Source: Bifidobacterium sp. ESL0775 | GTDB lineage: Bacteria > Actinomycetota > Actinomycetes > Actinomycetales > Bifidobacteriaceae | NCBI RefSeq assembly: GCF_029395475.1 | Contig: NZ_CP113917.1 | Span: forward strand, 186,001-250,000 | Direction: 5' to 3' | DNA length: 64,000 bases | Part shown: one piece after another, positions 1 through 57,880 of the stretch | Layout of the letters: each line of letters opens with the position of its first letter | How positions within the stretch are numbered: the stretch's first letter is position 1 | Translations under genes and position numbers: made by a program | The notes under the pieces: model-generated | What the model saw: the letters and a program-made list of their open reading frames with translations, nothing else | What the model was told of the DNA's origin: nothing | The model's database searches: none

Positions 1-3000
1 TCGTGGCCTCGGTGAGGGGGACGGCCTGGGTGCCGGGCTGCCAGGTCCTGGCCGGGCCGGCCCAGCCGGCGAACCAGGCGTTCGGGCCGCGCAGGTTGCC
101 GCGCGCGGGCACGGGGATCGCGGCGGTGGCCGGGTAGGTCGTGGTGTCGGCCAGGATGTCGTCGGTGATGGCGGGCTCGTCGCCGGTCACCGGGCCGCCC
201 GGGGTCGTGCCGCGCGCGAACGTGGCCCTCATCGAGGCCAGGGTCCCGGTCTGGTCGGTGGACTTGGCGATCCGCTGGCCGGTCGTCGGGTTGGTGACCG
301 TGAGCGTCACGGTGACGCGGTACTGGTAGCGGGCGGCCGCGCCGCGCGCGGTGTCGGTGAGCCGGCCGGCCGGCCAGCCCGTCGCCTGGCAGTCGGTGGC
401 CGACGCGGTCGGCGCGCAGGTGTCGGTGCCGTCGGCGCGATGGGTGTCGAGGTCGAGCCTGGCCGTCAGCCCGTCCACGAAGACGCCGATGTTGCTGACC
501 ATGTCGTAGGAGAGGTCGGCGGTGGGCGCGTCGCCAGGCCTCGCGTGCACCGTCGCGCCGTCGAAGCGTGCCGGCCCCACGGCCTGCCAGTGCGGCGTCA
601 GGGTGGCCCGCGCCACGCCGTCGCCCGCGTCGTCGCCGATCACGTAGTCGTATGGGCCCGGGGCGATCGTCTGGTAGCCGATCACGCTGTTGGTGTAGGT
701 CCAGTAGTCGAGGTAGGTGTCCCCGCCCGGCCCGGTGAGCCCCTGCTGGTTGGGTATGGTCACGGACGCCTGGTTGTAGGTGGTGCCGCCGGTCCTGTAG
801 CTGTACATCAGGGCCTTGATGTCCTGCGGCGGGGTGCCGGTGCCCGTCCCCCGCGAGAAGGTCAGGTGCTCGTAGGCCAGGTGGCCGCGCTGGGTGGCGG
901 AGCCCGTCGCGACCCGCTGGCCGGTGTAGGGGTCCGTGGTGGTGGTCGCGGCGGTGGCGGTGTACTGCACGCCGGGCGTGGGCTCCACGCTGGCGGCCGG
1001 GATGGTCACGCTGCAGTACCTCGTGGAGGCGGAGACCGAGCACGAGGCCGACCCGCCGCGCCCGGTCGTCACGCCTATCGTCTCGTAGCCGGCGGCGGCC
1101 GCGTCCTGGACCGTGAACTTGACCGGCCCGGACGGGCCGCCGTCGGGCATCAGCCGCTGCGGGACGTTGATGAAGGACAGCGACGTCGCCGGCGGGGTCC
1201 TCCACTTGGCTTTCAGCGTGAGGGTGTCGCGGGCGTGGGAGGTGAAGTTCCAGGAGGTGGAGGACGCGGCGGCGAACTGGTACTGGTTGCTGGGGCCGTA
1301 GGTCCAGCCGTCGAAGAGCTTGCCGGCCGGGTTGGTCAGGATGCCCGACGGGACGCTCACGGTGAACACGCCGGAGTCGCGGGTGTGGGTGTCGACCGTG
1401 TAGGACGCCACGCTGGTGGTGCCCCCGTTGGGGTCGATGTTGACGTGGCTGAGGTTGTGGACGTACGGGTCGGCCATGTAGAAGCCCGACGGGTCCGACG
1501 AGGCCAGTTGGCGCTGGAAGTCGTCGGCCGTGGGGTACCGGCCCAGGCAGTCCGTGTCTGTCTCGTTGAAGTCGCTGGTCTTGTACCACTTCGTCGCGGC
1601 CGCTATGCCGCTGGTCTTGTCGGACGGCAGGATGGTCCTGGGGCCCAAGCCCAGCTTGCGCACCGTGGACGGTATCTGGAAACAGTCCTCGAAATCATGG
1701 CTGTTGCATTCAATGCCGGAAGTGGCGCCGGCGGGGCAGCCGGTGTCGACGTTGTGCATGTCCAAAGTGACCAGGGGCGGCATCGACCATGGCAGTTTAT
1801 TGGATTCCCTAGCAAGGAACATATAAATTACGCCGTCTTTGCTCCAGTTGCTGACGTTGAGGCTGGTGAGTCGGGTGCACGCATTGAACATCATAGCTGT
1901 GGAGAGGACGTTCGCCACGTTCCAATGCGAGAGGTCCAGGGAGGTCAGGCTGCTGCACCCCTCGAACATCATCATCAAGTGCTTATTATTTCCGACGTCC
2001 AACTGGAAGAGCTTCAGTCCTTCGGTGGTCAGGCTGCTGCACCCCTCGAACATGAAGTCCATATAGATGGCGCCGCTGGTGTCCCAGTTGGACAGGTCGG
2101 CGGACGCCAGGCTCGTGTCGCCCTCGAACATGCTGTCGGCCGCCCCGTTCTTAAGATGGACGGTGGCGCCGGGGGCGACGGAGCGCAGGGACGTCATGCC
2201 TTTGAATGTGCCGAGGCTATAGCCGTCCAGGGTGAGGTCGCCGTCGATGTGGATGGTGGTGATGGTGGTTTTCAGCGAGTCCCAGGGTATGGTGCCCCAG
2301 CCGTCGGTGTAGGTGCCGCCGGAGAGGTGGAGGGTGCAGGTGGAGTCGATGTTCCAGGTGACGTTGCTGGTGCCCCATGCGGCGGGCGTGGTGGCCGGGC
2401 ACGTGTCCTGCGGGCCCGCCTCCAGCTCGCCTTGGGCCTGCGGCGTGCCGGCCTGCGCGCCGTCGTGGTCGGCGGCAGCGCGCACCGCCCCCGAGGCCCC
2501 GGCGGGATCCGCGCCTGCTGCCGCGTTCCCTCGCCGCGTCCGCCTGCCTGAAGCGGCGCCCGCGGCCGCCGAGCGCAAGCCGCTGCCGCTTGTGTCGGCG
2601 GGCACCTGCGGGATCGCGTCCTGTGTTTGTCCGGTTGTCCCGTCGGTGTCGGGGTCTGCCTGCGGGCCGGTCGTTGTCTCGGTGGTGGTAAGTGCCGTGT
2701 CAGTGGTCTTGGCCAGTACGGGGCTCTGTGTCGTGGGCAGTGTGGCCGTCTGAATGCGCAGTTGTGGCGTGGCCTCGTCGTCGGATTGCGTGGTGGGCAG
2801 CGGCGTGACGGCCGCGTCTGCCTGGATGGTTGGTGGAGTGGATGGGATCCCGCCAGTCTTGTCAACTTTGCTGGTCTTGCCGGGTTGTGCTTTCGTGCTC
2901 GGGGACGGCGTTGTCCGGGAGCGCGCGGCGTCTGGCGCGGATGGCGCGTTTGGCTTGGATGGTGGGTTGGAATGTGCGACGGCGGACTTGGTGGGGTGCG

Positions 3001-3165
3001 CGGCCGTGGACGCGTCGGTGTCGCGCCGCGAAGGTGTGGTTTGGCTGGAGGTGGGTGTTTTACCGGGTTGGGTTAACGGGTTTTGGTGACCAGCTTGCGG
3101 GGGGGGGTCGAAATCGTCATTGTTATGCACAACGCGAGCGCCACGATACTGTGGATAACTTCCAT
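1..3165 (-). CDS. Giant BspA/InlB-repeat surface protein 1 (C-terminus outside window; probable phase-OFF)
   Basis: The long open frame runs from a TTG at 3175 to the left edge without a stop (about 1058 codons visible). Residues 1-260 are a Pro/Thr/Ala-rich low-complexity stalk. Residues about 295-520 hold BspA/DUF285-type repeats (motifs such as FEGCSSLTSLDLSHW). From about 555 onward come InlB-B/List-Bact-type repeats (VNIDPNGGTT, FDGWTY). It is a close paralogue of the protein at 5756-11544, so an LPXTG-type anchor is expected beyond the edge. The conserved ATG at 3163-3165 opens a hydrophobic leader (MEVIHSIVALALCITM) in a different frame. The frames would join only if the nine-base C tract at 3099-3107 were ten or seven long. 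AAAAAGG precedes the ATG by 10 nt but abuts the TTG, which favours the ATG. Probable adhesin; the ligand cannot be told from sequence. Confidence 0.8.
3099..3107 (-). repeat. Homopolymer C9 (G9 on + strand) near N-terminus of surface protein 1
   Basis: Nine consecutive G on the + strand lie 56 nt downstream of the ATG at 3165. They separate the signal-peptide-like reading frame from the long body frame. The arrangement is identical at the two paralogous loci. Confidence 0.9.
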
Positions 3166-3556: not shown

Positions 3557-5224
3557 TCACTCTATTTTGATATACGCCCTTGTGCGGCTTCTCGGTTTTC
3601 CGATGGCCTGCGCCTGCCCAACGGCGATGAGCGTCTTGAGCGCGCGTTGCACGGTCTTGGTCGATGTCCCGGTTCGTCGCGCAAGCTCCTTGGCGGTGAT
3701 GGCCGTGTCCGGCGGCATGGCCTCACGGATGGTGGCCAAGGTGCCTTTTTTGACTTGGCTTATCGAACCTTGAGCGCCTGCCGTGCCTCTTCCGCTTTTG
3801 TGGGTTTTGCGACCCTTGGGAATTCCGGAATTTTCGTTTGTCTTGCCTGTCGTCGAGGGGCTTGTCATCGAAGAGCCGCCGCGCCGCCCTTGCCTTGAAG
3901 AAGTCAGAGGAGTGGCGGAGCCGGTACTTTCGGATTGCCCTTGGCGCGGTGCCCGAGGCGCCGGATTCCCGCGCCACAGAATGACGGTGAACTGGTCGGC
4001 GGCGGCGCGGAACGTGGGTCTGGGCAGGCCCCGCCGTTCCAACTCCCGCAGCACAAAGGGAATGCCGGAGCCTTGTCCCTCGACGGTCGTCGCCGCGCCC
4101 TCGCCGGGGATCGGGGCGTCGCGCACCAAGCCGATAAGCGCGGCGTTGCGGCAGCGGGAAGTGCCGTCCGCGAGGTTCTCCGTGGTGGCCCCGCCCCATA
4201 GTCCGCCGGGATTGCTGACCTCGATGCGGTCGGGGTAGATGTCGACGCTGACCGGCTGGCCACGGAAATATTCGTGGTATTCGCGGTGCACCACGGCGTT
4301 GGCGATGACCTCGCGCAGCACCTCTTCGGGGATCTCGAGCTCGTCGGTGCGCCCGATGCCCTCGATCAGCGAGTAGGTGCGCAGGTTGCGCCGTACCGCC
4401 TGCAGGGCCAGGTTGAGCATGACGGGAATGGGCCCGTCGCATTGCGCGCGGTCGAGGAAGCGCAGCGGGCCCGGTTCGGATTTGGCGTTGCCCGGGTGGG
4501 CCGCCACGTCGATGATGAGCCTTGGGAAGAACTGTTGCGGGTACTGCCCCGTCGCGAGGAGCCCGCCGAGCAGGACCTCGCCCTTTTTATCGGTGATGTC
4601 GAGCCTGGCGAGTTTCTGCTGTTTCGTCTTGGCCCCGTAAAGCGCGCGGGAGTTCCTCTTCGCCTCAAAAATGAGCCGCAGTTGCTGGTCGTCCAGATCC
4701 CCGGCGTCGCAGCCGGACACGACCTCCATGTCGGCGTAACTCGGCGTGAGCTGGTGCCGGTATTCGTATATCTCCGCGGCCGAAAGACGGATGTCCTTGT
4801 CATCGATGCGTTTGTAGCTGCCGTTTTCGATGCCTTTGGCCGTCACATAACAAGGTTTCTTGCCGATGTCATTGGCGAAGATGGCCACCGCGAGGATTTG
4901 CCGGCCGTCGAGGGTCTCCCGGCGCATGCGATAGGTGGGCGGATTGGTGAGCCTGATCCCGTCGCTGCCGCCGTCGCCGATGCCCTCGACGAATTGGTCG
5001 CGGGTTTTGTTGATGTCGAAGCCACGCGCCGGCGCGAACCCACTCATCTCGTCCAGCCCGAGCAGCAGGACGCCGCCGGACGAGTTGGCGAACGAGCTCA
5101 CGGTGTCCCAAACGCTGGCGCTCAGGCCGTGCGCGCAGGCTTTCGCCTCGTAGTCCGCGTCGTCGGTTCGCTGCGACCGCAGCCGCCGGACCGCTTTCGC
5201 CAAGGGCTCGTTCAGGATCGCCAT
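3557..5224 (-). CDS. AlbA_2/Schlafen-type ATP-binding transcriptional regulator 1
   Basis: Length 555 aa. The N-terminal 120 residues fit the AlbA_2 (Schlafen AlbA) domain, with FANSSGGVLLLGLDE as the hallmark. Residues about 290-430 fit the HATPase_c_4 domain usual in this family (EVLREVIANAVVHREY, then SNPGGLWGG and GQGSGIPFV). The last 60 residues look like a helix-turn-helix (AITAKELARRTGTSTKTVQRAL). Proteins of this build are annotated as ATP-dependent helicase-related or putative transcriptional regulators. The upstream region holds several copies of TATCTTCGTCATCGA plus an inverted copy, suggesting autoregulation. It lies directly upstream of, and on the same strand as, surface protein 1, an arrangement repeated at 56-57.6 kb. 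The regulated target is an inference. Confidence 0.85.
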   Translation of the reverse strand: MAILNEPLAKAVRRLRSQRTDDADYEAKACAHGLSASVWDTVSSFANSSGGVLLLGLDEMSGFAPARGFDINKTRDQFVEGIGDGGSDGIRLTNPPTYRMRRETLDGRQILAVAIFANDIGKKPCYVTAKGIENGSYKRIDDKDIRLSAAEIYEYRHQLTPSYADMEVVSGCDAGDLDDQQLRLIFEAKRNSRALYGAKTKQQKLARLDITDKKGEVLLGGLLATGQYPQQFFPRLIIDVAAHPGNAKSEPGPLRFLDRAQCDGPIPVMLNLALQAVRRNLRTYSLIEGIGRTDELEIPEEVLREVIANAVVHREYHEYFRGQPVSVDIYPDRIEVSNPGGLWGGATTENLADGTSRCRNAALIGLVRDAPIPGEGAATTVEGQGSGIPFVLRELERRGLPRPTFRAAADQFTVILWRGNPAPRAPRQGQSESTGSATPLTSSRQGRRGGSSMTSPSTTGKTNENSGIPKGRKTHKSGRGTAGAQGSISQVKKGTLATIREAMPPDTAITAKELARRTGTSTKTVQRALKTLIAVGQAQAIGKPRSRTRAYIKIE

Positions 5225-5755: not shown

Positions 5756-8700
5756 TCATCTGGCGCGTCCCTGTCGTTGCTCGCGCCGCCGGTCGCGCAG
5801 CCTGGTGGCTGCGGCGAGCAGGAGGAGCGTGGCTCCCAGAAGGAGGGCGAGGATGGCGGCCAAGCGCTGAGGCGTGCCGCCGGTCAGCGGCAGGGTGCGT
5901 AGTTGTTTCGGCAGGTTGAAGTCCCTGCTGGTTGTTGCGCTGGCGATGCGGCTGGATCCGCGCCATGCGCCGTCGTCCTCGGTGGCCGCCGCGGTGACGC
6001 GGTAATGGCCGCCTTGCCGCAGCGGGATGGTCACGCTCCAAGTGTGCTCGCTGTGCCCGTCGTAGCCGCCTGGGCCGCCGAGCGTGGCGGCTTGGGGTGT
6101 GCCGAGCGCGTTATCGCTCTGGCCCTCCAGCCCGGTGGCGGTCGCCTGGTAGCCCTCGCTGGAGGTCCATGGGGTGGCGGTGCCGGAGAAGGTGGTGCCG
6201 GAGAAGGTGGTGTTGGCGGTCGCGTTGAGGCTGGGCGCGTGGAGCTTGCGCCACACGGCGTGCAGGGTCGTGTCTATCTCCACGTCGCCGGTGTCGGCGT
6301 TCAGCGTCACCGTCCGCCTTGTCGGGTCGCCCATGCCGGTGTCGGGCGTGGCGGCGCCTTCGGTGGCGCTCCAGCCCTGGAACGCGGCGTCTGCGGGCTC
6401 CATGCTCTCGGTGGGCCCGGCCAATGTCACATCCGCTGGCCGCGACGCGTCATCGATGTCGATGAGGCCGGTGGCCGGTTCGGGCGCGGTGGCCGTGGCG
6501 CCTCCGGGCATGTCGGGCGCGAACGCGACCTTGAGCCAGGGCAGGATGGCGATGGAGTCCGTCTTGCCGCTGACGAGCTGCCCGCTGGTCTGCTGGGCGG
6601 TGAAGTGGTGTTCCGCCCCGACGCCGTAGCGGCTGGTGTAGTCGCTGGCGTCGAATGACACGCTCCAGTTCCAGGGGCGCAGCGCCTGCGCGACTTTGTA
6701 GGGGTAGTTGCGGTAGACGCTGGCATGCGAGAGCGGGGTGCTGTTGGTCATGAGGTTGGCCACGGCCCAGATGTCGTAGAGTCCCGGCCCGGCGGAGAAG
6801 TCGCCGTCTTTGGTCGTGTATTCTTTGTCCTTTTCGTGGCCGCGGATGTAGTGGCCGCCCCACGGCACGTTGTCTTCCGCGTTGGTACGCATCATTTCGC
6901 TGTTATTCCTGGCGGTGTCCGGCCTGAGCATGGGGGTCACTAGGGTGCAGCTTCCATCGTAGTGACCCCCGTCGGTGGGTTCCGTGGCGCCTTGGGGACA
7001 TATCACGATCTGTATTCGTGTGTTGGCGTTGTTGTTGACGCGGTCGATGTGACCTTTGACGGCTATCTTGCCGGGGTCGGTCGGATCCGGGGTGAAGGAC
7101 TCGACCCGTGGGTTGCCGCTGGTGACCGGTGTGAACGGGTCCGCCGCCGGCCGTGGGTTCGTGGCGTCCTTGCAGGTGTCCGCGCCGCCGTTGCCTCCGG
7201 TCATGCAGGCTTTGACAATGTCGCCGCCGGAGCCCTGCGCGGTGCCGGACAGGGTCACCGTGCCGTTCCCGGCGTGGTGGTAGGCCGCCGCCAGGTGCGT
7301 GGGGCCGGGGACGGCGACCCATGTCGCGTCGAGCGTCACCGCTATGTGCTTGGCGAGCATGGTGCCCGCAATGCCCGTGGCCGTGCCCGCGTTGGCGGGG
7401 ATGTTGGCTTGCCCGGCGGGCCATGTCGTGTCCGCGGCGGCCGAGTTCCAACCCGAGAACGACGTGCCGGTCGGCCCGGCGAGCCCGGTGGAGTCGGGAA
7501 GGGTGGGGACTGCCGCGTAGCTGCCGGTGTCGGCCAGCACGAGCAGGGGGGTTGGCGGTGTTCCCGTGCCCCCCGTTCCCGGCGTGAAGTTGATGGTCAT
7601 GTAGGAGAGGGTGCCTGTCTTCGGCGTGGTGGTGGATATCGGCTGGGCGATTACCAGGCCGTTGCTCTTGTAGTTCACGGTCGCGCTGATCGAGTATGGC
7701 GTGCCCGGCGTGCCGTCCAGCGGTCCTCCGGAGAGCGGGCCGGAGTACTCGCATGCCCCCGAGCGGAATGCGCAGGAGACCAAGTGGCCCGCCGAGCCGA
7801 ACACGGCCGTGCTGCCGTCCGGGGCGCCGGCGCTGGTGACAAACACGCTCAGGCTTTCGGTCCCGTTGCTCGAGACGCTTGACCTGGGCTCGCTGATGGT
7901 GACCGCGCCCATCGCGCTCCACTGGGCCGTGAGCGCGATGGTGGTGTGTTTGGCGGCGTCGGTGGCGTCGCCCTTCGCGACGGGGATGTCGCTTACGCCC
8001 GCCGGCCACGAGTCCGATCCCCTGGCCCAGGCCGAGAGGTACGAGCCGGCCGCCGGCGACATGGAGCCCATGCCGGGCAGCGCCGGCGCCGCCGTCGAGT
8101 CGGCGGTGTCCACCGGCGCGGAGGCCGGGTCGGGGGCCGCGCCGGCGGCGGTGCCCTTGTCGAACGTGACGGTCATGTAGGGCAACGCGCCCCGCATGGT
8201 GCGGGAGCGGGTGACGTTCAGCCCGGAGCCGGGGTCGATCGAGGTGATCGAGGTGGTGATCGCGTACGTGTAGGTCGAGCCCTGGCCCGTGTCGGCCAGC
8301 TTGTCCAGGTCCCACGTGACCGTGCACTCGCTGGTGTTGTTGGAGCGGGGCGTGTTCGAGCAGTTTGCGTGCCCTCCGGTCCGGCCGGTGTCGATGGTGA
8401 TCTCGCTGTTGCGTGTGATGTTCTGGGAGATCACGTCGATGTCGACGGTCGCCGTGTGGCCGGCCTTCGCGTGCACCACCGGGTCATGCACGGCCGGGGC
8501 CTCGAACGAGTACCAGCTGGCCGTCAGGGTGAACGAGTAGCGGTGGCCGTCGGCCGTGGTCTTTTCCTGGCTGAGCCCGAACGATGATCCCGGATAGACG
8601 ACCCCGGAGCGCGTGTCGCTCCATCCGCGGAACGACCCCCCGGAGGGTGGCGTCATCCCCGACTGGCCAGGCAACGATATGAGGGTCATGCCGCCGCTGA

Positions 8701-11544
8701 CTGTCGTGATCAACGCATAGACAGGCCCCGGGGCGCTGCCGCCGCCCTCGCCTTTGTCGAACGAGACCTGGTAATAGTCCAGCACGCCGCTTTTCGTCGT
8801 GGTCTTGGTGATGGCCCGCCCGGTGTCGGGGTTCGTGGCCCTGCTGGTCGCGGTGATCGTGTACGTGTCGCCGTACCCCGTCTGGAAACTCGAGACGGGG
8901 ACATCAACCGTGCAGGGGTCATTGGTGCAGGCGGCCGATGACCAGCCCGTCGATGTGGACGCCGTGGTCGTCCTGCCGTCCGGGGCTATGCCGGCGCTGA
9001 TTTCGAATTCCACCGACTGGCCATCCATGCCCACTGACAGGTCGGTGATTTTAGGTGCCCCCATGGTCTTCCAGCTGGCGGTGAGGGTGACGGTCATGTG
9101 GCCGCTGGCGTCCGTGTTCCCATGGGAGAAGTTGACCATGCACGAGCCATATTGGCAGCCGGAGACTTGGGTGTTGTCGGAATAGGCCCAGCCGTCGAAC
9201 CAGGTGTCGTCCGGCACGGACAGGCCCCCGCGCCGCGGCAGGCTTGTGGTTATGTAGCTGTCATTCTCGGCGACGAGTCCGGCGGTGAGGTCGTTGGGTG
9301 GTGTGCCGCTTGGGTGGGTGCCGTCGGCGAGGGTGCCGGCGGAGAATTTGACGGTCATCCATGGCAGGGTGCCGGTGCGGGTGTATGGGGCCGAGACCTG
9401 TTTGCCGGTTTTGGGGTCGGTGCCGGTGGTGGTGGCCGTCACGGAGTATGTCGCCCCCGGTGTCGGTTCGAGGGAGGCGACGTCGTTCCAGTTTATCCTG
9501 CATGTGGTGCCGGTTGTGTTGGTGGCGTTGCAGGTGCCGGTGCCGCCGCGTCCGGTGCGTACGCTGGTCTGCGACCCGGTCGGCGCCGCCGTGTTGATGC
9601 CCACGTTGAGCCACGACCCTAACGAGGTTCTGTATCCGTCCCAGGAACTACGCACGTGTGGCGCGTCTATGGACGGCGCGAACGGTTTCCATTGGGCGGT
9701 GAGTCTGTAGTAGGTGTATTTGCCTTGCGGCATGGCGAAGGCGTAGCCGCCGTCGGAGCTGGTGTAGGTCTTGCCGTTCTGGTCCTTCCAGCCGTCGAAC
9801 AGGCAGCCCGGCTTGTTGGTGAGGATGCTGGCCGGCACGCCTACGGCTTGGTCGGTGAGTTTGTTGTCGCGGGTGTAGGAGGCGGGGCTTGCGCTGCCGC
9901 CGGCTGGGTCGATGTCGACGGTGGACTCCACGTGGACCAGGGAGTCGTCCACGTAGTAACCGGGGGAGCTCGTGGTCCACAGGTGGTACGCCAGGTTATA
10001 CGCCGGGTTATTTTCTTCGGTGAGTTTGCCGAGGTAGTCGATGTGGTCGCCCAGCCCGCTTGTCTCATCCCACCACGTAGAACTACTTATATTCATCAAC
10101 GGATTTACTTCATTTGGTCCCGAGAAGGGGGGGCCGCTTCGCCCCGCACCAGTGATAGCCAGCTTTCGTAGCGAGGCGGGGAAATAGGTATCAACGCTTG
10201 AAAAATTGTTGATGTCTGCGCTGTATAAGTCAAGCGAGACAAGACTGTTGCAACCGTCTAGGAAATATATCCCACCGCCTCCGAAATTGTGCAGGTTCAG
10301 TGTGGTGAGACGGCTGCAACCATCGAACATATAATGTCCGACGCTGCTAGACGTGAAATTGGGCAGGTCCAGTGTGGTAAGGCTGCTGCAGTTGTAAAAC
10401 ATGTAGTTCAACACTGGATGGACGTCGCCGACTATGGTCGTGTACCAGTTGGTCAGGTCGACGGTCGCCAGGCTCGTGTCGTCTCTGAACATGCTGGCGG
10501 CCGCCCAGTTCTTGAGGTGGACGGGGGCGCCGGTGGCGACGGAGCGCAGGGACGTCATGCCACTGAACACGTATCCGCTGTTGCTGCCGGCGTCCAGGGT
10601 GAGGTCGCCGTCGATGTGGATGGAGGTGATGGTGGTCTTCAGTGTGTCCCAAGGCATGGCGCCGGAGGTGTTGCTGGTGTGGGTGCCACCGGAGAGGTGG
10701 AGGGTGCAGGTGGCGTCGATGTTCCAGGTGACGTCGCTGGTGTCCCATGCGGCGGGCGTGGTGGCCGTGCACGTGTCCTGCGGGCCCGCTTCCGGCTCGC
10801 CTTGCGCCTGAGGCGTGCTGGCATGTGTGTCATCGTGGTCGGCGGCCGCGTGCACCACTCCCGTGGCGCCTGCCGGTTCCGCGCCTGTTGTCGTGTTCCC
10901 GCGCCGCGTTCGCCTGCCTGAAGCGGTGCCCGCGGCCGCCGAGCGCAGGCCGCTGCCGCTTGTGTTGACGGGCTCCTGTGGGATCGCGTCCTGTGTTTGT
11001 CCGGTTGTCCCGTCGGTGTCGGGGTCTGCCTGCGGGCCGGGCGTCGTCTCGGCGGTGGCGAGTGCCGTGGTGTCGGTCTTGGCCAGTACGGGGCTCTGGG
11101 TCGTGGGCAGTGTGGCCGACTGGACGCGCAATGACGGCATGGCCTCATCCTTGGATGTGTCGCCGGATTGCGCGGCGGGCGACGGCATGACGGATTGGGT
11201 CGTCGGGGACGCGGACGGGTGGCCGTTGGCCTTGCCGGGTTTGTTTGGTTGTGCCTTCGCGCTCGGGAACGGCGTTGTCCGGGAGCGCGCGGCGTTTGGT
11301 GCGGGCCGGGTATCAGGACGGGTGGCGTCTGGCTTGGATGGTGTTGAGGAATGTACGACGGCGGATTTTGTAGTGTGCGCGGCGGCGGACGCATTCGTGT
11401 CGCGCCACGAAGGTGCGGCTTGGCTGGAAGTGGTGGTTTTACCGGGTTGGTTTAACGAATTTTGGTGACCGGCCTGCGGGGGGGGGTCGAAATCGTCATT
11501 GTTATGCACAACGCGAGCGCCACGAGACTGTGGATAACTTCCAT
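5756..11544 (-). CDS. Giant BspA/InlB-repeat LPXTG surface protein 2 (probable phase-OFF)
   Basis: The open frame runs from a TTG at 11554 (1932 codons). Residues 1-260 are a Thr/Ala/Pro-rich stalk. Residues about 305-455 hold DUF285/BspA-type units (SLTTLDLPNF, MFDGCSRLTTLNLHNF). From about 520 to 1790 there is a long series of InlB-B/Flg_new-like repeats (VTFDKGEGG, FRGWSD, LTASW). The C-terminus is a classic sorting signal: LPLTGG near residue 1888, a hydrophobic segment and an RDRRRE tail. No signal peptide is encoded in this frame. The conserved ATG at 11542-11544 starts a hydrophobic leader (MEVIHSLVALALCITM) in another frame, and the two frames are separated by C9 at 11479-11487. I infer that the functional protein needs ten (or seven) C. 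Wall-anchored adhesin-type protein, ligand unknown. Confidence 0.88.
11479..11487 (-). repeat. Homopolymer C9 (G9 on + strand) near N-terminus of surface protein 2
   Basis: The tract lies 55 nt after the ATG at 11544, between the hydrophobic leader frame and the body frame. In the leader frame the nine-base tract leads to a stop within about a dozen codons. One added base would give T-P-P-P-Q and continue into the 1.9-kb-residue body. Confidence 0.9.
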
Positions 11545-11572
11545 GGGAAACCAACCTTTTTCAACAAACGTA

Positions 11573-11599
11573 ATTCCGCGATGTAATACATCGCGGAAT
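11573..11599. promoter_or_regulatory. Perfect 13-bp inverted repeat upstream of surface protein 2
   Basis: ATTCCGCGATGTA, one base, then TACATCGCGGAAT, 28 nt upstream of the ATG. It is nearly identical to the palindrome at 3197-3223 and in the same position as the different palindrome at 55981-56011. Confidence 0.75.
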
Positions 11600-12002
11600 A
11601 CAACCTGTGGCTTACGTTACCGGTTTCCCTGTCCGGTTTCAACCCGGCCGGCCGCGGGCGGTTCGCGCATTGTCGGCGGCTTCGGGCGCCCGCACCGGTG
11701 TGGCCGGGATCCTCGCGAAACGTTTGCCGCCTTGTGCCGCCTTACGTTCCAGATGGTTTGCCGGGAGGTTTCCGGCGCCGCACCCGGTGCCGGCTGGCCG
11801 GTCTTCTGGGCCTTCTTTTCCGGCGTGTCGCGTGACGGCGCGTGGGTAGGCGTGTGTTGGCCAGTTGGCCCGTCTCCGATTTATTCCCCGTCGTCGTTGT
11901 GGACATCTATCGCTCTGCGAATTGGCCCCATTGCCATTTTGCTAGCATTTTTCACGATGTGCTTTCTCTGTGTTTTTGGAACATTCCGTACGCGCTGTGT
12001 TG
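11600..12002. other. Leader/intergenic region of surface protein 2
   Basis: Non-coding. The part up to about 11850 resembles the leader of surface protein 1. I see no convincing gene. The forward open frames across it are by-products of GC-rich composition. Confidence 0.45.
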
Positions 12003-12185
12003 TTAGTTGCGGCCTGAGCCTGAATTCATGGGATCAAAGACGCGCGGCTTATGCTTTGGAGCTTGCAGGTCTGAGATTTTCCCATCTATGAAACGTATAA
12101 GGTCATCGATATCAGCCAACTTGTTTTTGAAGCGGGGGTCATTGAGGCCCGTCTCGCTTGCGTCCAACATCAGTCTGCTCGACAT
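12003..12185 (-). CDS. Small hypothetical protein
   Basis: A 60-aa charged protein beginning MSSRLMLDAS, with a helical middle (DIDDLIRFIDGKISDLQ) and a basic tail. AGAAGAGGA sits about 3 nt before the ATG, a good ribosome binding site, which is the main reason for calling it. It has no membrane segment or signal peptide, and I recognise no family. It lies downstream of the toxin-antitoxin-like region and could be a fragment of a larger lost gene. Confidence 0.4.
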   Translation of the reverse strand: MSSRLMLDASETGLNDPRFKNKLADIDDLIRFIDGKISDLQAPKHKPRVFDPMNSGSGRN

Positions 12186-12420
12186 TTGTCCTCTTCTCTG
12201 CGAGAATTACTGGTATTCACTTTATGTATTACCCTGCAAATCCTGATAGCCAGCCTTCAGAACTTGCAGCGTAAATTGTAACACAAAAACTATCGGATAT
12301 TTCTAACGACAATATAGTTCCGTGTCCGTTTCCACGTTTGGTTTGCCATGAGAGCGTCCCCCGTACGTCATGTTCAACAATATTATTTTCTCGGTGGTAT
12401 CCGCCTCGGGTGCGCCAGTA

Positions 12421-12500
12421 AGGCCCATTAATAACTCCTTGGCGTTTTTTGCGCTTCCTCGCCGGTGTACCTCACGGTTTTACTGTCATCTCAATGCAAT
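12421..12500 (-). pseudogene. Decayed duplicate of the antitoxin-like gene
   Basis: Read on the - strand this encodes DDSKTVRYTGEEAQK before breaking down. That matches DDSKAIEYTGEEGQK of the intact gene at 12559-12831 with five differences in 15 residues. No open frame remains. The surrounding 12186-12558 holds no other recognisable gene. Confidence 0.55.
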
Positions 12501-12558
12501 TTTCGGTCTTTTTTGTATTGTCTGATTCACTTGAACATGGTTTCTTTCTAGGCTGGGC

Positions 12559-12831
12559 CTATGCCGAGGGATTCGATTTTGCAAGGCGTGTATGCAGCCA
12601 GGCCGGCACCTTGAACTGCATTGGCTTGCTATGATGGCCGAATTTCTTTGGATCCTCCTCCGGAGCCTGCAGAATCGTCTGTACCGCGGCGTCAATGTCC
12701 GTGGTGCCGGTGACTCTCATCAGCATTTGGTTGACGTGCTTTTGCCCTTCTTCTCCGGTGTATTCGATGGCTTTGCTGTCATCCCAACGCCACTTCTCGT
12801 CGTTGCTGCGCTCTTTGCTTTTTTTAAACAC
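12559..12831 (-). CDS. Putative antitoxin (ribbon-helix-helix-like C-terminus)
   Basis: 90 aa from a GTG at 12831, chosen because ACGGAGACAGAG lies just before it and it starts 13 nt after the stop of the preceding gene. An upstream in-frame ATG at 12879 lacks a good ribosome binding site. The C-terminus QFKVPAWLHTRLAKS resembles ribbon-helix-helix antitoxin sequences; the N-terminal half is charged. Immediate coupling to a small KHG-motif protein suggests a type II toxin-antitoxin operon. A degraded second copy lies just downstream. The family assignment is by pattern only. Confidence 0.5.
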   Translation of the reverse strand: MFKKSKERSNDEKWRWDDSKAIEYTGEEGQKHVNQMLMRVTGTTDIDAAVQTILQAPEEDPKKFGHHSKPMQFKVPAWLHTRLAKSNPSA

Positions 12832-25489: not shown

Positions 25490-28400
25490 ATGGCGGATTT
25501 GAAGAGGCGTTTGTCGCGTGTCCGTGAGGGCAGGAGGCCAGCGAGGCATGGAGGTCTGCTTTCTGCCGTGGTGGCGTTGATTGTCGGCGTGGCAATGGTG
25601 CTGCCGACCGGTGCCGCCGTGGCCGATCCCGCTGAAGGCAGCCAGGCTCCCAGCCAGGTGCAGTCTCAGTCATCCTTCCCATCGGCCCAAGGTCTGACCC
25701 CTCGTGGCGGTGGTAGCCTTCTGCGCTCTACGTGCCTTGTCACCCCGACACCGATTAGTACCTGTTTTCCTGACCCTGCTCTAAGAGATAAGGTTCTTGC
25801 CAAGATTAATAGCGCGTTGGGCACGAGTTATACGCTTAGTGAGTATTTCACGCAAACAATGGCTGATTCCGTTGACACGTTGGACATGCAGTTCAGCGTG
25901 ATTAGGGGTAACGATGGTGGCTTGGAAGGTCTGGAATATCTTCGTAATCTGACCAGTTTTACCGCGGAGCACACTTGGAATCTTACCGATGTCTCGCCTG
26001 TGGCTAATCTGACGAATCTCCAGACTCTTGATTTGTTTAACGCTCGCATTTCGAATGTCACGCCGTTGTCTGGCCTCGTGAGTCTGACGAGTCTTAACCT
26101 AGGCAAGAACCGCATTTCGAATGTCACGCCGTTGTCTGGCCTTGTGAATCTAACGAATCTTAATCTTTCCAATAACAGTATTTCATCTATTTTAGATTTG
26201 GCTAGTCTTACGAATTTGACGACTTTGAATCTGGAGCATAACCGGATTACGGATGTTTCGGCGCTGTCAGGCTTGAACACAAATTTGAGAACCCTTGATT
26301 TGGCTCAGAATATGACGCTTTCGAATGTCGCGCCGTTAACGAGTCTCACAAATCTGGCTTCACTTGATTTGCAGTTTGACCCGATTGGAGACGTGGGCTT
26401 GAGCTCGATAGCTGGCGCTCTTGGAAACCTGACCACGCTTAAGGTGGCACAATGTGGCATTACGAACACGACACCGCTGTCCAGCTTGACCCAATTGCAG
26501 CATCTTATAATTTTCCGAAACAACATCTCGAGTGTGTCAACGTTCGCCACCATGTCAAGTCTCGTCGAACTTGATTTGGTCGAGAACCATATTAGTGACA
26601 TCTCGCCTTTGACGGCATCGACTTCCTTAGGCTCGTTGACGACGTTGCATTTGCTGGGTCAGACGATAACGCAGACGCCGGACGCCACTTCAACCGACTT
26701 GACGGCTAAGTCAGGCAAACTGACCAGTTCCCCTGACACTTATGCAGCCAATGATACGACTGTTGCCCCGACGACCCCCAGCTCCGGTACTTATAGTGGG
26801 TCCACTGGTGTTATGACATGGCCGTCATCAGTGCCGCTGCCAACAACTTTGAGTTTTGGATTCTCTGAACCATCCGTGTCAGTAGGAAGTGCTTCTACGA
26901 CATACAGCGGCACGGTGACGCGTGGCGTCACTGCCGAGTCGACGCATTCGGTGACGTTCGAGCCGGGGCCGGGTGCCTCGTGGTCGTCGGTCTCGGGCAC
27001 GAACCCGTTGACGGTCAATGACGGCGACAAGGTGCCCGCGGCGCCGTCGATCGTGGGCCTGGTGCCTCCGTCTGGCTATCGCCAGACCGGCTGGGAGTAT
27101 GCGTCGTCGCACAACGGCGCGCGGGTCGGCGATTTCCTGTTCGGCCCGTCGGGCACCGCGGTGACGTCGGACCTGTATGTGCGCCCGGTGTGGGGGCGCG
27201 CCTCGTACTCGATTTCGTATGATTGGAACGGCGGCTCGTGGGCTGGCGGCTCGCTGCCGGCGTCCGCCGTGTATGGCGATACCGTCAACGCGCCCGCTTC
27301 GGCTGGCGCGCGGGCGCCAGCGCACCATCATTTGGATTATTGGGAGTATAAGACTCCTTCCGGTTCGTGGACGGCGTTTACGGGCAGTTTCGCGATGCCG
27401 GCCGACAATGTCTCGATCCGCCCGGTGTGGGCCGAGTCGACGCATTCGGTGACGTTCGAGCCGGGGCCGGGTGCCTCGTGGTCGTCGGTCTCGGGCACGA
27501 ACCCGTTGACGGTCAATGACGGCGACAAGGTGCCCGCGGCGCCGTCGATCGTGGGCCTGGTGCCTCCGTCTGGCTATCGCCAGACCGGCTGGGAGTATGC
27601 GTCGTCGCACAACGGCGCGCGGGTCGGCGATTTCCTGTTCGGCCCGTCGGGCACCGCGGTGACGTCGGACCTGTATGTGCGCCCGGTGTGGGGGCGCGCC
27701 TCGTACTCGATTTCGTATGATTGGAACGGCGGCTCGTGGGCTGGCGGCTCGCTGCCGGCGTCCGCCGTGTATGGCGATACCGTCAACGCGCCCGCTTCGG
27801 CTGGCGCGCGGGCGCCAGCGCACCATCATTTGGATTATTGGGAGTATAAGACTCCTTCCGGTTCGTGGACGGCGTTTACGGGCAGTTTCGCGATGCCGGC
27901 CGACAATGTCTCGATCCGCCCGGTGTGGGCCGAGTCGACGCATTCGGTGACGTTCGAGCCGGGGCCGGGTGCCTCGTGGTCGTCGGTCTCGGGCACGAAC
28001 CCGTTGACGGTCAATGACGGCGACAAGGTGCCCGCGGCGCCGTCGATCGTGGGCCTGGTGCCTCCGTCTGGCTATCGCCAGACCGGCTGGGAGTATGCGT
28101 CGTCGCACAACGGCGCGCGGGTCGGCGATTTCCTGTTCGGCCCGTCGGGCACCGCGGTGACGTCGGACCTGTATGTGCGCCCGGTGTGGGGGCGCGCCTC
28201 GTACTCGATTTCGTATGATTGGAACGGCGGCTCGTGGGCTGGCGGCTCGCTGCCGGCGTCCGCCGTGTATGGCGATACCGTCAACGCGCCCGCTTCGGCT
28301 GGCGCGCGGGCGCCAGCGCACCATCATTTGGATTATTGGGAGTATAAGACTCCTTCCGGTTCGTGGACGGCGTTTACGGGCAGTTTCGCGATGCCGGCCG

Positions 28401-30906
28401 ACAATGTCTCGATCCGCCCGGTGTGGGCCGAGTCGACGCATTCGGTGACGTTCGAGCCGGGGCCGGGTGCCTCGTGGTCGTCGGTCTCGGGCACGAACCC
28501 GTTGACGGTCAATGACGGCGACAAGGTGCCCGCGGCGCCGTCGATCGTGGGCCTGGTGCCTCCGTCTGGCTATCGCCAGACCGGCTGGGAGTATGCGTCG
28601 TCGCACAACGGCGCGCGGGTCGGCGATTTCCTGTTCGGCCCGTCGGGCACCGCGGTGACGTCGGACCTGTATGTGCGCCCGGTGTGGGGGCGCGCCTCGT
28701 ACTCGATTTCGTATGATTGGAACGGCGGCTCGTGGGCTGGCGGCTCGCTGCCGGCGTCCGCCGTGTATGGCGATACCGTCAACGCGCCCGCTTCGGCTGG
28801 CGCGCGGGCGCCAGCGCACCATCATTTGGATTATTGGGAGTATAAGACTCCTTCCGGTTCGTGGACGGCGTTTACGGGCAGTTTCGCGATGCCGGCCGAC
28901 AATGTCTCGATCCGCCCGGTGTGGGCCGAGTCGACGCATTCGGTGACGTTCGAGCCGGGGCCGGGTGCCTCGTGGTCGTCGGTCTCGGGCACGAACCCGT
29001 TGACGGTCAATGACGGCGACAAGGTGCCCGCGGCGCCGTCGATCGTGGGCTGGTGCCTCCGTCTGGCTATCGCCAGACCGGCTGGGAGTATGCGTCGTCG
29101 CACAACGGCGCGCGGGTCGGCGATTTCCTGTTCGGCCCGTCGGGCACCGCGGTGACGTCGGACCTGTATGTGCGCCCGGTGTGGGGGCGCGCCTCGTACT
29201 CGATTTCGTATGATTGGAACGGCGGCTCGTGGGCTGGCGGCTCGCTGCCGGCGTCCGCCGTGTATGGCGATACCGTCAACGCGCCCGCTTCGGCTGGCGC
29301 GCGGGCGCCAGCGCACCATCATTTGGATTATTGGGAGTATAAGACTCCTTCCGGTTCGTGGACGGCGTTTACGGGCAGTTTCGCGATGCCGGCCGACAAT
29401 GTCTCGATCCGCCCGGTGTGGGCCGAGTCGACGCATTCGGTGACGTTCGAGCCGGGGCCGGGTGCCTCGTGGTCGTCGGTCTCGGGCACGAACCCGTTGA
29501 CGGTCAATGACGGCGACAAGGTGCCCGCGGCGCCGTCGATCGTGGGCCTGGTGCCTCCGTCTGGCTATCGCCAGACCGGCTGGGAGTATGCGTCGTCGCA
29601 CAACGGCGCGCGGGTCGGCGATTTCCTGTTCGGCCCGTCGGGCACCGCGGTGACGTCGGACCTGTATGTGCGCCCGGTGTGGGGGCGCGCCTCGTACTCG
29701 ATTTCGTATGATTGGAACGGCGGCTCGTGGGCTGGCGGCTCGCTGCCGGCGTCCGCCGTGTATGGCGATACCGTCAACGCGCCCGCTTCGGCTGGCGCGC
29801 GGGCGCCAGCGCACCATCATTTGGATTATTGGGAGTATAAGACTCCTTCCGGTTCGTGGACGGCGTTTACGGGCAGTTTCGCGATGCCGGCCGACAATGT
29901 CTCGATCCGCCCGGTGTGGGCCGAGTCGACGCATTCGGTGACGTTCGAGCCGGGGCCGGGTGCCTCGTGGTCGTCGGTCTCGGGCACGAACCCGTTGACG
30001 GTCAATGACGGCGACAAGGTGCCCGCGGCGCCGTCGATCGTGGGCCTGGTGCCTCCGTCTGGCTATCGCCAGACCGGCTGGGAGTATGCGTCGTCGCACA
30101 ACGGCGCGCGGGTCGGCGATTTCCTGTTCGGCCCGTCGGGCACCGCGGTGACGTCGGACCTGTATGTGCGCCCGGTGTGGGGGCGCGCCCCATATACAGT
30201 GACATACGAGCCTGGGACTGGCGCTTCGTGGACTCCGTTGCCGGGGACTGGTTCAGTGCTTTATGGTTCGACAATCCCGTCGGCGCCGTCGATCGCGGGC
30301 CTGACGGCTCCTGCCAACAAGGTGCAGGACGGCTGGTTGTTTGCCTTGTCAAATAATGGACCTGCTACGACGTTCACGTTCGGTACAACGACGATGCCTG
30401 CGCATGACATCTGGATTCGTCCGAATTGGGTACAAGCGGTTCATTCGGTGACATTCGAGCCCGGGCCGGGTGCCTCGTGGTCGTCGATCTCCGGTAGCAA
30501 CCCGCTTCCGGTGAACTATAGAGGCACGATTCTTACGGCACCGGTGATCACCGGTCTTTCCAAGCCGGGTTATCACCAGGATGGCTGGGTGTCGTCTGCG
30601 ACAAGTAACGGCTCCCCGACGTTGGTGTTCAAGTTTGGTCCGACCGGCGTGGGAACTTCGGTGATGTCTGACCTGTTTGTGCGCCCGAACTGGGTGGCTA
30701 ATGGTGCTGTACCGAATCCTCCGCATAACACTTCGTCGGGGCAGCTAGGTTCTGGCCAGCCAAATGGCGGCGCGAAGTTGTCAAAGACTGGCTCCGCGAT
30801 CGCCATCCCAGCTGGTTTGGCAATATCCTTCCTGGTATTGGCAGCTGGGCTGGAGGTTCTGCGGAACTCCGAGTCCGAATCGAGCCGACATCGTCGGATG
30901 GATTGA
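25490..30906 (+). CDS. Internalin-like LRR/InlB-repeat surface protein, interrupted by a 1-nt frameshift
   Basis: Start ATG at 25490 with GAGG upstream. A signal peptide is clear (basic start, then LLSAVVALIVGVAMVLPTGA, cut near AVADP). About nine internalin-type leucine-rich repeats of 22 residues span about 145-390 (NLTNLQTLDLFNARISNVTP). They are followed by tandem InlB-B-like modules encoded by 498-bp repeats, and a sorting signal LSKTG with a hydrophobic segment and Arg-rich tail. The frame breaks near 29050 where one repeat copy reads GTGGGCTGG instead of GTGGGCCTGG. The first part ends at 29155 and the second frame runs to 30906. Restoring one C gives an 1805-aa protein. This is either a true disabling mutation or an assembly error in a repeat. 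Wall-anchored adhesin-like protein at the head of a pilus locus. Confidence 0.85.
26936..30187 (+). repeat. 498-bp tandem repeats, six full copies plus a partial
   Basis: GAGTCGACGCATTCGG recurs at 26936, 27434, 27932, 28430, 28928, 29425 and 29923. Spacing is exactly 498 bp except 497 for the copy holding the deletion. Copies appear identical at nucleotide level. Each encodes 166 residues, two InlB-B-like units. Near-identity indicates recent expansion or homogenisation. Confidence 0.93.
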
Positions 30907-31476: not shown

Positions 31477-31765
31477 CTACACGCGTGTAGTTACATGTTA
31501 TGTAACCGATATCAACATTCAGAAACGTAGGTTTTGTAGTTAAACAAGTAGGACTGATAGTTTTTAGAACAATGAATCATTAATACGTAAACACGTTAGA
31601 ATCGAATAATTTTGGCGATTTCTGTCGTTGGAACTGGCTAGCTTTGTTATCGGTATGGAAATGTCATGCTAGTATGGGTGTATAACAAGGGAGCGTGTTA
31701 GGCATTCGTCGGCATTGCTTGGGTAAGAACTTAAGTGGGGGTTGTGCCTCACCAGGGAGAGAGAC

Positions 31766-33682
31766 ATGGCGATACGTAAAGGATTGCGCAACGTTGCAGC
31801 AGCGGCGCTGAGTGCTGCGATGATACTGGCATGCGGGGTCGCCGGCGTTGACAGCGCTAATGCGGATGAAAATGTTGATGTGAGTCATCGTGTTGGGCAA
31901 ATTAAGGTTGATGAGGCAGCCGAGGGCCATGTCTTCAAAGCTATTCGGATAGGTAGCTATACTTCTGCCACGAAAACTGGGACAATGGTCACAGAAATTG
32001 ATGTGAGTACTGTTTCTGCGCCCGCCGCAGTCGTCAATGCAATCGGTAACGCATACAGGAGAGTGAGTAGACGTCCCTCAGTACCTTCGACAGCATACTG
32101 TCATTCGGACACCATGTGTTGGATATCGCGTAACTGGCTTGGATACCTTAGCGAAGCTGAAAGTGAAGATACAACCTCGAATTCTCATCCGTTTACAGGT
32201 AAGTTGCGTGAGTTTGTGACCGAGTTGCAAAAGGATTCTGGTTTTCAGGCGGCAATAAATACTAGCGTCAGGGCAAGTGTGGCTCCAGGGTCGAGCACGG
32301 CCTCTTTTGATAATTTGGATCAAGGTATCTATGTTATTGAAGACACAACTGCTGTGCTGCCGAACGGTGTTTCTAATTCAATTCCTATGTTGGTCGGTAC
32401 TACGGTGGGCGATAGCCATCTTCAAGTGGTCAGCAACCCTGTGACGCCTATGCTCGGCGAGATTAAAGTGAAATCTGATACGCCAACAGTTGATAAGGAA
32501 TTGGATTCTGTCACGGACGCAGCGGGATGGCCAGTTGTAGGTGATCCTAGTGACGGTGATGTTATGCATTTTATTTTGACTTCTATGGAACCGATGACAA
32601 CAGGATTTAGTCGGTATTTCTTCCAAATTACTGATAAAGCCAGTGCTGGTTTGCAGTATGTTAACGGCTCTGCACACGCAACTGTGGATGGCTCTGATGT
32701 CCCACTGGCACCTGTCCCGCCGACACCACCCTCACCAATGGTTGACGAAGTGTATTTCGCGCAGTCTGATATTTCTGGTTCGCATTATCTTACGTTTACG
32801 TTCCCCAATATTACGGCTTACTCTTCTACTGCTGCGCTTCAAGTCGAATACGACATGAAGGTTGTTGGAACGGGAATAATAAGCAACGATGCAGGCGTTA
32901 AATGGTCGAGTGATAGCAGCCATCAGCCAGAGCCCACTTGCGTAGCAAATCCCGCAACGAATTGTGGTGCTGTGGAGAAAAATGATACTGCTTCCAGCTA
33001 CAGTTTCTCTTCGTACTATATGATGCTGGAAAGCACCGATGGTATGAATCAGAGCTTGCCGCTCGGCGGCGCGACTTACGAGTTGCTCAAAGATGACAAG
33101 CCTTTGTCGTTCAGGCAATTAGGTGAAGGATATTACGTCTATCATCCGAGCGAGGACAAGGAATCGCACACTACGACCAAACTCGTCACGTCAAGTCACA
33201 CGCAGGTGGTGCAAGGCGCTCGGGCCGCCTCTTTCATTGAGCCGCGGACGCAACAGGCGGTGGACCGAGATCAAGGTCTTGGCTCGTTGAAGATTGATGG
33301 CCTTCCTCTTGGCATCTACACGGTCAAGGAGACTGCGCCACCCACCGGAAAGCCGGATGCGGAGTTGTTGAAGTTCGATGTCAAGTACACCAAAGATGCC
33401 AGCAACAATGGCACATACGTTAGCTTGCTTCGGGACTACACGGGTGGGTTGGTGCAACGGCCCATCGGGACAAGGGACCATCTTGGCGCCAATTTCTCGT
33501 TGAACGTGGCTAAGAAGCGTGGAGGTTTGTTGGGTGTGTTCGGCGCGTTGGGCACTGGGATGTTCGGTCCTGGAACCTTGGCACGGACGGGCGCGTCAAT
33601 CGTGGTCTTGCTCATTCTGCTGTGCTGCTTGATAGCAATCGGCACGGCGATATTGAGTCGGCGTCATCAGATCAGCAGATAA
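31766..33682 (+). CDS. Pilin-like surface protein with LARTG sorting signal (probable minor/tip pilin)
   Basis: 638 aa from the ATG at 31766, preceded by GGGAGAGA; an upstream in-frame TTG is unlikely. A signal peptide is evident (LRNVAAAALSAAMILACGVA, cut near SANA-DE). The middle has features of isopeptide-bonded pilin domains: GIYVIEDTT in the N-terminal domain and an E-box-like GIYTVKETAPPTG near the C-terminus. It ends LARTG, a hydrophobic stretch and RRHQISR. LAXTG-type signals are favoured by class E sortases, so the sortase at 22062-23573 is a candidate partner alongside the linked class C enzyme. Related in layout to the next gene (shared NWLGY and SGKLR/TGKLR motifs). Assigned as minor pilin by position only. 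Confidence 0.8.
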   Translation: MAIRKGLRNVAAAALSAAMILACGVAGVDSANADENVDVSHRVGQIKVDEAAEGHVFKAIRIGSYTSATKTGTMVTEIDVSTVSAPAAVVNAIGNAYRRVSRRPSVPSTAYCHSDTMCWISRNWLGYLSEAESEDTTSNSHPFTGKLREFVTELQKDSGFQAAINTSVRASVAPGSSTASFDNLDQGIYVIEDTTAVLPNGVSNSIPMLVGTTVGDSHLQVVSNPVTPMLGEIKVKSDTPTVDKELDSVTDAAGWPVVGDPSDGDVMHFILTSMEPMTTGFSRYFFQITDKASAGLQYVNGSAHATVDGSDVPLAPVPPTPPSPMVDEVYFAQSDISGSHYLTFTFPNITAYSSTAALQVEYDMKVVGTGIISNDAGVKWSSDSSHQPEPTCVANPATNCGAVEKNDTASSYSFSSYYMMLESTDGMNQSLPLGGATYELLKDDKPLSFRQLGEGYYVYHPSEDKESHTTTKLVTSSHTQVVQGARAASFIEPRTQQAVDRDQGLGSLKIDGLPLGIYTVKETAPPTGKPDAELLKFDVKYTKDASNNGTYVSLLRDYTGGLVQRPIGTRDHLGANFSLNVAKKRGGLLGVFGALGTGMFGPGTLARTGASIVVLLILLCCLIAIGTAILSRRHQISR

Positions 33683-33933
33683 GAAGGGGATAAATATGTC
33701 AGGGTGCAGAAGCAGTTAGACAAAGTCATGACTTGTAGTACACTATTGAGTAGTGCGTACTATAAGCCTAAAACTTCAAGCTTAAAGGCCTGTCGGTTAC
33801 GCGCAAGGAAATGCTTCTAAGGAGTTAGGCATGGAGATGTGATGTATTTGGCAGAGCATCAGGGGATGAAAGTCCTGTTGAGAGCTTGAACAATTCAGAA
33901 ATGTATTTCCGGAAAATACAAGGAGAAATAAAA

Positions 33934-35766: not shown

Positions 35767-35817
35767 GGTTTCCATTGTTTAGAAAGTTCGATTCATAGTT
35801 GAACTTTTAAAGACAGC

Positions 35818-35868
35818 TAAAGGGTGGTTTGGTCTGGAATCAAATTTCGGACCGAACCACCCTTTACT
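35818..35868 (+). terminator. Strong hairpin after major pilin
   Basis: AAAGGGTGGTTTGGTC pairs with GGACCGAACCACCCTTT around a short loop. It is placed between pilin and sortase, where partial termination could set the subunit-to-enzyme ratio. Confidence 0.85.
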
Positions 35869-35976
35869 ATATGTAAAGCATGGAAATCGCAGTAAACTAC
35901 TTTCTGTTGTCTTCTTTTTGCGAGACAATAGCGGAAATACTTTTAGGTACTTTGAGCTGACCAGTGGAATGGACGA

Positions 35977-57580: not shown

Positions 57581-57596
57581 AAATAGAATCTTATCA

Positions 57597-57880
57597 TATC
57601 TTATCGTATCGTTTTGATAAGATACGATAAGATAGTAGGATTTGTAAAAATCAAAAAGCATATTTTTGTTGGAATAGCAATGTTTCTGAGCTATCTTATA
57701 TCTTATATTTTTATCTTATAAATTATACGATACGATACGATATTTTGATAAGATAAACCGGTCTTTTTGTGAGGGTATAAGCTCAATTTTCGTTGGAATT
57801 ACAACGTTTCTGCGCCTATCTTATAATCTTCTATCTTATATTTTGTATCGTATCACCTATCCGATCAAATGATACGATAG
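57597..57880. promoter_or_regulatory. Operator-like repeats upstream of AlbA_2 regulator 2
   Basis: A perfect 14-bp inverted repeat, TATCTTATCGTATC (57597-57610) and GATACGATAAGATA (57621-57634), begins 16 nt before the start codon. Further CTATCTTATA and CGATACGATA motifs recur to 57880. A diverged direct duplication of about 60 bp starts at 57668 (GTTGGAATAGCAATGTTTCTG) and at 57792 (GTTGGAATTACAACGTTTCTG). No gene is present in 57581-57936. Confidence 0.75.

Follow-up and report, generated by a model that had tools for sequence, protein, structure and literature searches.

The closest described arrangement is that of the pilus genes bbr_0113a/b and bbr_1889a/b of Bifidobacterium breve UCC2003, in which a signal-peptide ORF and an LPxTG ORF are separated by a G-tract (PMC9187656). 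In that study, tract lengths of 10–12 and 9–10 coexisted in the population, and strains in which the two ORFs were placed in frame made pili. The genomes surveyed in it were examined for sortase pilus clusters; additional G-tracts of UCC2003, within genes and in promoters, are mentioned in the discussion without detail. One or two tract-bearing clusters per genome are reported there for B. breve and B. dentium (PMC9187656). Poly-G near the N-terminus has been described for PARCEL-type lipoproteins of Mycoplasma agalactiae (PMC2996958). The open-licence literature retrieved on tract control in bifidobacteria dealt with pilus genes only, and tract control of a BspA/PARCEL-type family was not found in it.

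The window analyzed here is the whole stretch of 64,000 nucleotides at positions 186001–250000 of a genome consisting of a single contig of 2,255,024 bases (2.26 Mb). It contains a gene, referred to as c5, whose signal-peptide-like leader and long LPxTG-type body are split at a run of nine C. Slippage phase variation of a BspA/PARCEL-type LPxTG surface-protein family is the best reading of this arrangement, and we consider it likely. In this reading, c5 belongs to a multigene family whose products are surface proteins of the BspA/PARCEL type anchored by sortase. Export signal and body meet at a poly-C tract after the hydrophobic core of the leader, and replication slippage in the tract would shift leader and body in or out of frame. 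In the ON state, with both in frame, the protein would be exported and anchored; in the OFF state, a short leader peptide would be made, and the body would remain untranslated for want of a usable start. We infer that tract lengths change within a population and that expression follows them, and the proteins may be adhesins or otherwise host-facing. Slippage would take place in a genome in which a search for the MutS_I domain gave no match; the control search gave matches in 11 of 14 genomes.

Anatomy of the split gene

The features of c5, and of the two paralogs c4 and c6 in the window, are as follows.

11478–11486, minus strand: C9 tract of c5 (nine G on the plus strand; by sequence inspection)
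11452–11544, minus strand: c5 leader ORF, signal-peptide-like, from ATG 11544 to a TAA end (from the sequence and leader-frame pN/pS)
5756–11486, minus strand: c5 body ORF, in the -1 frame relative to the leader, ending in LPLTGG, a membrane segment, and RRREQRQGRAR
11555–11561, minus strand: AAAAAGG, probable ribosome-binding site for ATG 11544 (10 nt spacing; from the sequence)
11574–11598, minus strand: 25-bp palindrome with perfect 12-bp arms upstream of the c5 leader, a candidate operator or 5' UTR hairpin (from the sequence)
3099–3107, minus strand: C9 tract of c4, with leader ATG 3165 and the same out-of-frame register (from the sequence)
1–3098, minus strand: c4 body, cut by the window edge (a 1,819-codon open frame in the genome; from the sequence)
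55889–55897, minus strand: C9 tract of c6, with leader ATG 55955, a diverged leader, and the same register (from the sequence)
51013–55888, minus strand: c6 body, with DUF285/PARCEL repeats and an LPLTGG end (from profile matches)

A sequence-only reading of this DNA had described a hydrophobic leader encoded from ATG 11544, which was confirmed by translation: the product is MEVIHSLVALALCITMTISTPPRRPVTKIR, opening with the residues MEVIHSLVALALCITMTIST. The stop expected after the tract is present, but it lies about 8 codons past C9 and not about a dozen; likewise, the tract is nine bases long as claimed, but lies one base earlier than had been given. Starting at TTG 11554, the body frame stays open for 1,932 codons, down to 5756, and ends in LPLTGG; the size given for it had the wrong unit ('1.9-kb-residue' for 1.9 thousand residues). 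The sortase-substrate features of c5 are all present, namely an LPxTG-type motif (LPLTGG), a hydrophobic stretch, and an Arg-rich basic tail in that order at the C-terminus, and sortases in the genome (four matches, at 208, 222, 390, and 836 kb). The tract lies just past the hydrophobic core of the leader. This core is conserved among the leaders; the n-region of the c5 leader has no K or R, and no clear AXA site is seen, which counts against the slippage reading. The leader may work as a Sec signal. The addition of one C or the loss of two would bring leader and body into a shared frame, as had been proposed; this holds by frame arithmetic only.

The body of c6 matched DUF285 (375 bits) and TIGR02167 (433 bits), and that of c1, a paralog outside the window, matched TIGR02167 at 50.6 bits (cut-off 30); one ESL0769 copy also exceeded this cut-off. 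The c5 body matched LRR_5 at 28.0 bits (cut-off 27.7) and TIGR02167 at 27 bits, below the cut-off of 30.

The leader frame was evaluated in 14 chosen leaders of the 49 scored. Its pN/pS was 0.45, compared with 0.84 and 1.52 in the other two frames, and it contained stops in none of the 14 leaders, compared with 10 and 5 of 14 in the others. As judged by this low ratio and the absence of stops, the leader frame is coding and under constraint. Uninterrupted leader–body relatives are present in this genome and in others. In c3, a paralog at genome 173537, the TTG lies outside the body frame owing to an indel directly ahead of the ATG, and in c6 a stop codon immediately precedes the leader ATG; both argue against translation entering from further upstream. 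The proposed ribosome-binding site is supported by AAGGTTGG, which is common to the seven own copies aligned. The palindrome upstream of the leader is retained in c6, where its sequence differs but the pairing is perfect, whereas those of c1 and c3b each contain a single mismatch; long palindromes precede the cluster leaders of this genome, with equivalents across c1–c6. A scan for sigma-70-like promoters on the strand of the gene over 11480–12700 found nothing.

Other starts and other roles for this segment were considered and rejected. TTG 11554 abuts AAAAAGG without a spacer, as had been stated, and is thus a poor body start, besides lying outside the body frame in c3. GTG 11509 has by eye no ribosome-binding site at a usable distance, and a leader read in the body frame as coding would have the pN/pS of 1.52. 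The database protein of c5 (P0004, 1,917 aa, MHNNDDF...) starts at an internal GTG, by arithmetic at window position 11509, and three cluster paralogs are likewise recorded from an internal GTG with MHNNDDF.... The listed public records that were inspected all begin past the leader. A search of public proteins for fused leader–body alleles found none, the matches being copies from this genome, ESL0769, and ESL0690 only; in a protein search for a second strain of the same species, only the copies of this genome matched. Two 9-mers within the c5 leader (window 11502–11537; TTATCCACA...TGTGCATAA), located inside the C9 leaders of this genome, fit the DnaA-box consensus in inverted order. A DnaA-box function was rejected and the likeness is probably incidental, since the motif is absent from c1 and from the other species' leaders compared. 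A strict leader pattern searched in 112 genomes of the genus retrieved the copies of this genome and four single matches elsewhere, which by eye resemble DnaA-box clusters.

The tract family in the genome and its surroundings

The genome has 14 leaders with a C7–C9 tract. All six of its C9 runs represent the same site in six paralogs, five at 167–198 kb and one at 242 kb, and six of the eight C8 runs, together with two C7 runs, sit in leaders of the same type elsewhere, so that 12 of the 14 C runs of at least 8 belong to the leader family. The only C8 runs outside it, at genome 391247 and 1004015, are not followed by a long ORF. If bases are modeled as independent, with G+C taken from a 114-kb stretch, about 66 C/G runs of at least 9 are expected genome-wide; 6 are present, which indicates that long C runs are otherwise avoided. 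The window itself has three C9 runs compared with a shuffle mean of 0.95, a modest excess, as three or more occurred in 9 of 100 dinucleotide shuffles. Near-identical leaders of this genome differ in tract length (four C8 and two C7). In c1, a seventh cluster paralog without a tract, CTCCCTCCCC replaces C9 and the leader is in frame with the body, reading MGIVHSIVAFALCVAMTMFAPSPQ directly into it. The leader peptide of the OFF state comprises 25–30 codons in the 14 own tract copies.

On one side, c5 is flanked by an AlbA_2 gene and the paralog c4; on the other, a yidC-type gene lies about 3 kb away. The surface-gene array c1–c5 (genome 152654–200548) lies between dnaA/dnaN and yidC/parA/parB-type genes assigned with Pfam, probably in the origin region; the GC3 skew of the cluster gave no replication direction. 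The ESL0769 cluster also precedes dnaA (L062:15728 onward). Between the switchable genes lie genes with SLFN_AlbA_2, HATPase_c_4, and HTH domains as well as AAA/DUF234 genes, and look-alikes were observed in ESL0769 and ESL0690 (window 3557–5224 and 56156–57661; L038:6023-7522, L061:15748-19335, L062:13669-15402, and L142:2452-4188). Two further loci lie on the plus strand of the window. At 25490–30906, an LRR/LPxTG-type gene contains seven near-identical 498-bp repeats and has its frame split by one lost C of a CC pair near 29050; the loss is a genuine mutation or else an indel arising in assembly. At 31742–37071, a pilus-like cluster encodes a sortase and two LPxTG-type proteins that match SpaA weakly, and has no C/G run of at least 7.

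Reading-frame register among relatives and competing explanations

Searching 112 genomes of the genus with a sequence model built from leader and tract gave 69 matches. Of these, 54 (E <0.001) were followed, in this genome, ESL0690, ESL0682, ESL0769, and two further genomes (G091 and G025), and 15 weak single matches (E 0.0016–0.046) in 15 other genomes were left aside. An ATG leader was present in 49 of the 54, and these were scored as 37 tract leaders (C6 or longer) and 12 tractless ones. The five G025 matches without an ATG lie outside these counts: two have no tract and are in frame when read from a GTG or TTG start, one C11 copy is out of frame from GTG, and two were unscored. Among the tract leaders, 3 of 37 were in frame, 25 one C short, and 9 two short, the register being weak for two copies with short bodies (112 and 87 codons); 11 of the 12 tractless leaders were in frame, counting one degenerate leader (G091:C1:578638) in the twelve. 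The scored ATG of copy 287146 is internal to its leader. Across the scored copies, tract length sets the leader/body reading frame, as in a contingency locus.

Tracts range from C6 to C11 in Bifidobacterium sp. ESL0690, ESL0769, and ESL0682. Where near-identical leaders differ in tract length (C7/C8 and C7/C10), they are paralogs, not alleles. In-frame tract copies number none of 14 in this genome, none of six in ESL0690, none of six in ESL0769, and 3 of 11 in ESL0682, the only scored genome with ON tract copies (C8, C8, and C11). Of the 26 tracts of at least 8, 23 were one C short, three in frame, and none two short, and the 23 copies in the shared OFF register are spread over three genomes. 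In the other OFF register are seven copies of ESL0682, with C6, and two of this genome, with C7. Two near-identical leaders of ESL0769 have C10 and C7, exactly three apart. In ESL0690 and ESL0769, whose aligned cluster pieces are about 74–97% identical, 11 of 12 tracts are C10, a constancy that suggests a steadier state than free slippage would give. If one third of the copies were expected ON, the binomial probability of 3 of 37 in frame would be 0.0004, but the copies are not independent; when tracts of at least 7 were grouped at 90% leader identity, three of ten groups were in frame, which is the chance level. The excess of one OFF register remains suggestive only. Within a cluster, the bodies differ but the leaders are almost the same, which suggests that the 5' ends have been homogenized, and the shared register of the 23 copies may reflect paralog homogenization, assembly under-calling, or programmed slippage.

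These counts qualify the proposal that c5 is an ON/OFF contingency locus captured in the OFF state. The split between leader and LPxTG body and the differing tracts of the paralogs agree with it; instead of a single gene being OFF, however, all 14 own copies are OFF and 12 share one register, so that a captured OFF state is not separable from a maintained register or homopolymer under-calling. In one unlikely variant, selection would hold the leaders a single base short of the ON state by default, with display by rare DNA, RNA, or ribosome slippage, and the dnaA-adjacent array would be a set of homogenized switch cassettes with diversified bodies displayed one or a few at a time. Under-calling itself, in which the true tracts are one C longer, most copies are ON, and OFF is a long-read consensus error, appears distinctly unlikely; the genes could still be slippage-prone in that case. 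A systematic one-base loss would yield the shared '+1' register, one of the seven 498-bp repeats of the gene at 25490–30906 has a frame-breaking CC-to-C deletion, and annotated tract lengths may be wrong, as PMC9187656 cautions. Flye, Racon, and Pilon were used to assemble nanopore reads in a study of ESL-numbered stingless-bee isolates (17 Bifidobacterium; Illumina and partly nanopore reads; PMC10128065), a collection from which this genome and those of ESL0769, ESL0690, and ESL0682 presumably come. However, the two own C7 copies would require two extra bases, ESL0682 has in-frame C8 and C11 copies and mostly the other register at C6, the C7 runs within the bodies of c5 and c1 leave the reading frame intact, and tract length follows the leader subfamily (C9 or C8).

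A programmed slippage site is quite improbable in our estimate. In this case, the body would be kept one base off and a fraction of product would arise when RNA polymerase slips, or the ribosome slips by -1, at the C run, so that display would be low but steady. Such a site would account for the single register of all 23 OFF copies with a tract of at least 8, which is reached via leader lengths of 57, 58, 61, and 62 and tract lengths of 8, 9, and 10, as well as for the three-base step and the C10 constancy described above. No clear 3' stimulatory structure was found, however: five downstream stretches gave z = -0.06, 1.47, -0.99, 0.64, and 1.59, two leaders alone gave fold z-scores of 0.06 and 0.79, and the c5 leader with tract and following bases (145 nt) gave z = -1.60, with 13 of 200 shuffles as good. 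A ribosomal frameshift driven by downstream structure was rejected, as the stretches tested gave no stable fold. The nine copies in the other OFF register and the three in-frame ESL0682 copies also speak against such a site, and leader homogenization leaves few independent cases (the ten groups, three of them ON). That the split genes are decaying pseudogenes is highly improbable, because the leader is constrained and, of 21 tract copies inspected at the end of the body, 18 reach an LPxTG motif; the common break also falls at the C run. The three that end early without LPxTG are in keeping with decay, namely own copy 2007192, ESL0769 1284028, and the ESL0682 C11 copy, which end 251, 754, and 839 codons past the leader, respectively. 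The last is one of the ON copies, and its missing LPxTG end also counts against the slippage reading. Slippage phase variation remains our preferred reading.

Comparison with known systems

The homologs in ESL0769 and ESL0690 are recorded as BspA family leucine-rich repeat surface proteins, and the c5 family resembles these in its body homologs and LRR_5/DUF285 matches; the name carries nothing on a poly-C switch, and the proteins so recorded begin beyond the leader, at an internal codon. PARCEL repeats in surface proteins, as in c1 and c6, are also described for Mycoplasma agalactiae and M. capricolum lipoproteins with homopolymer tracts (PMC2996958). Those are lipoproteins of wall-less bacteria and not sortase-anchored, unlike the c5 family. 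Tract genes recorded from internal starts can pass for proteins without an export signal.

Within the genus, sortase-dependent surface genes that carry a G/C tract close to their start are reported for B. dentium and other Bifidobacterium, as found here (PMC12104195, PMC9187656); as described, those of B. dentium belong to pilus clusters, unlike the c5 family (PMC12104195). If the slippage reading is true, some bifidobacteria, probably bee symbionts, hold a sizeable homopolymer contingency repertoire (14 loci in a 2.26-Mb genome, partly beside dnaA), from which many surface combinations are possible in principle, and bet-hedging via surface variation would become testable in a gut system of few species.

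The precedent that had been named for slippage in bifidobacterial pilus genes matches the B. breve pilin arrangement (PMC9187656). In that account, as in the c5 family, a signal-peptide-like ORF and an LPxTG ORF of the same genus are split by a G/C homopolymer, the downstream ORF has no good start, and the tract lengths of 9–12 are comparable to C9. The B. breve tracts have G on the coding strand, whereas those of the c5 family have C; the B. breve gene is the first of a pilus operon with a dedicated sortase, whereas the c5 family is of the BspA/PARCEL type with no adjoining sortase, and the genes neighboring c5 did not provide the further pilins and dedicated sortase of a pilus operon (PMC9187656). 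Two loci are described in B. breve, compared with 14 tract loci in one genome here (PMC9187656), and, if our reading is true, what was found for B. breve pilins would hold not just for one or two pilus operons but for an entire family of surface proteins.
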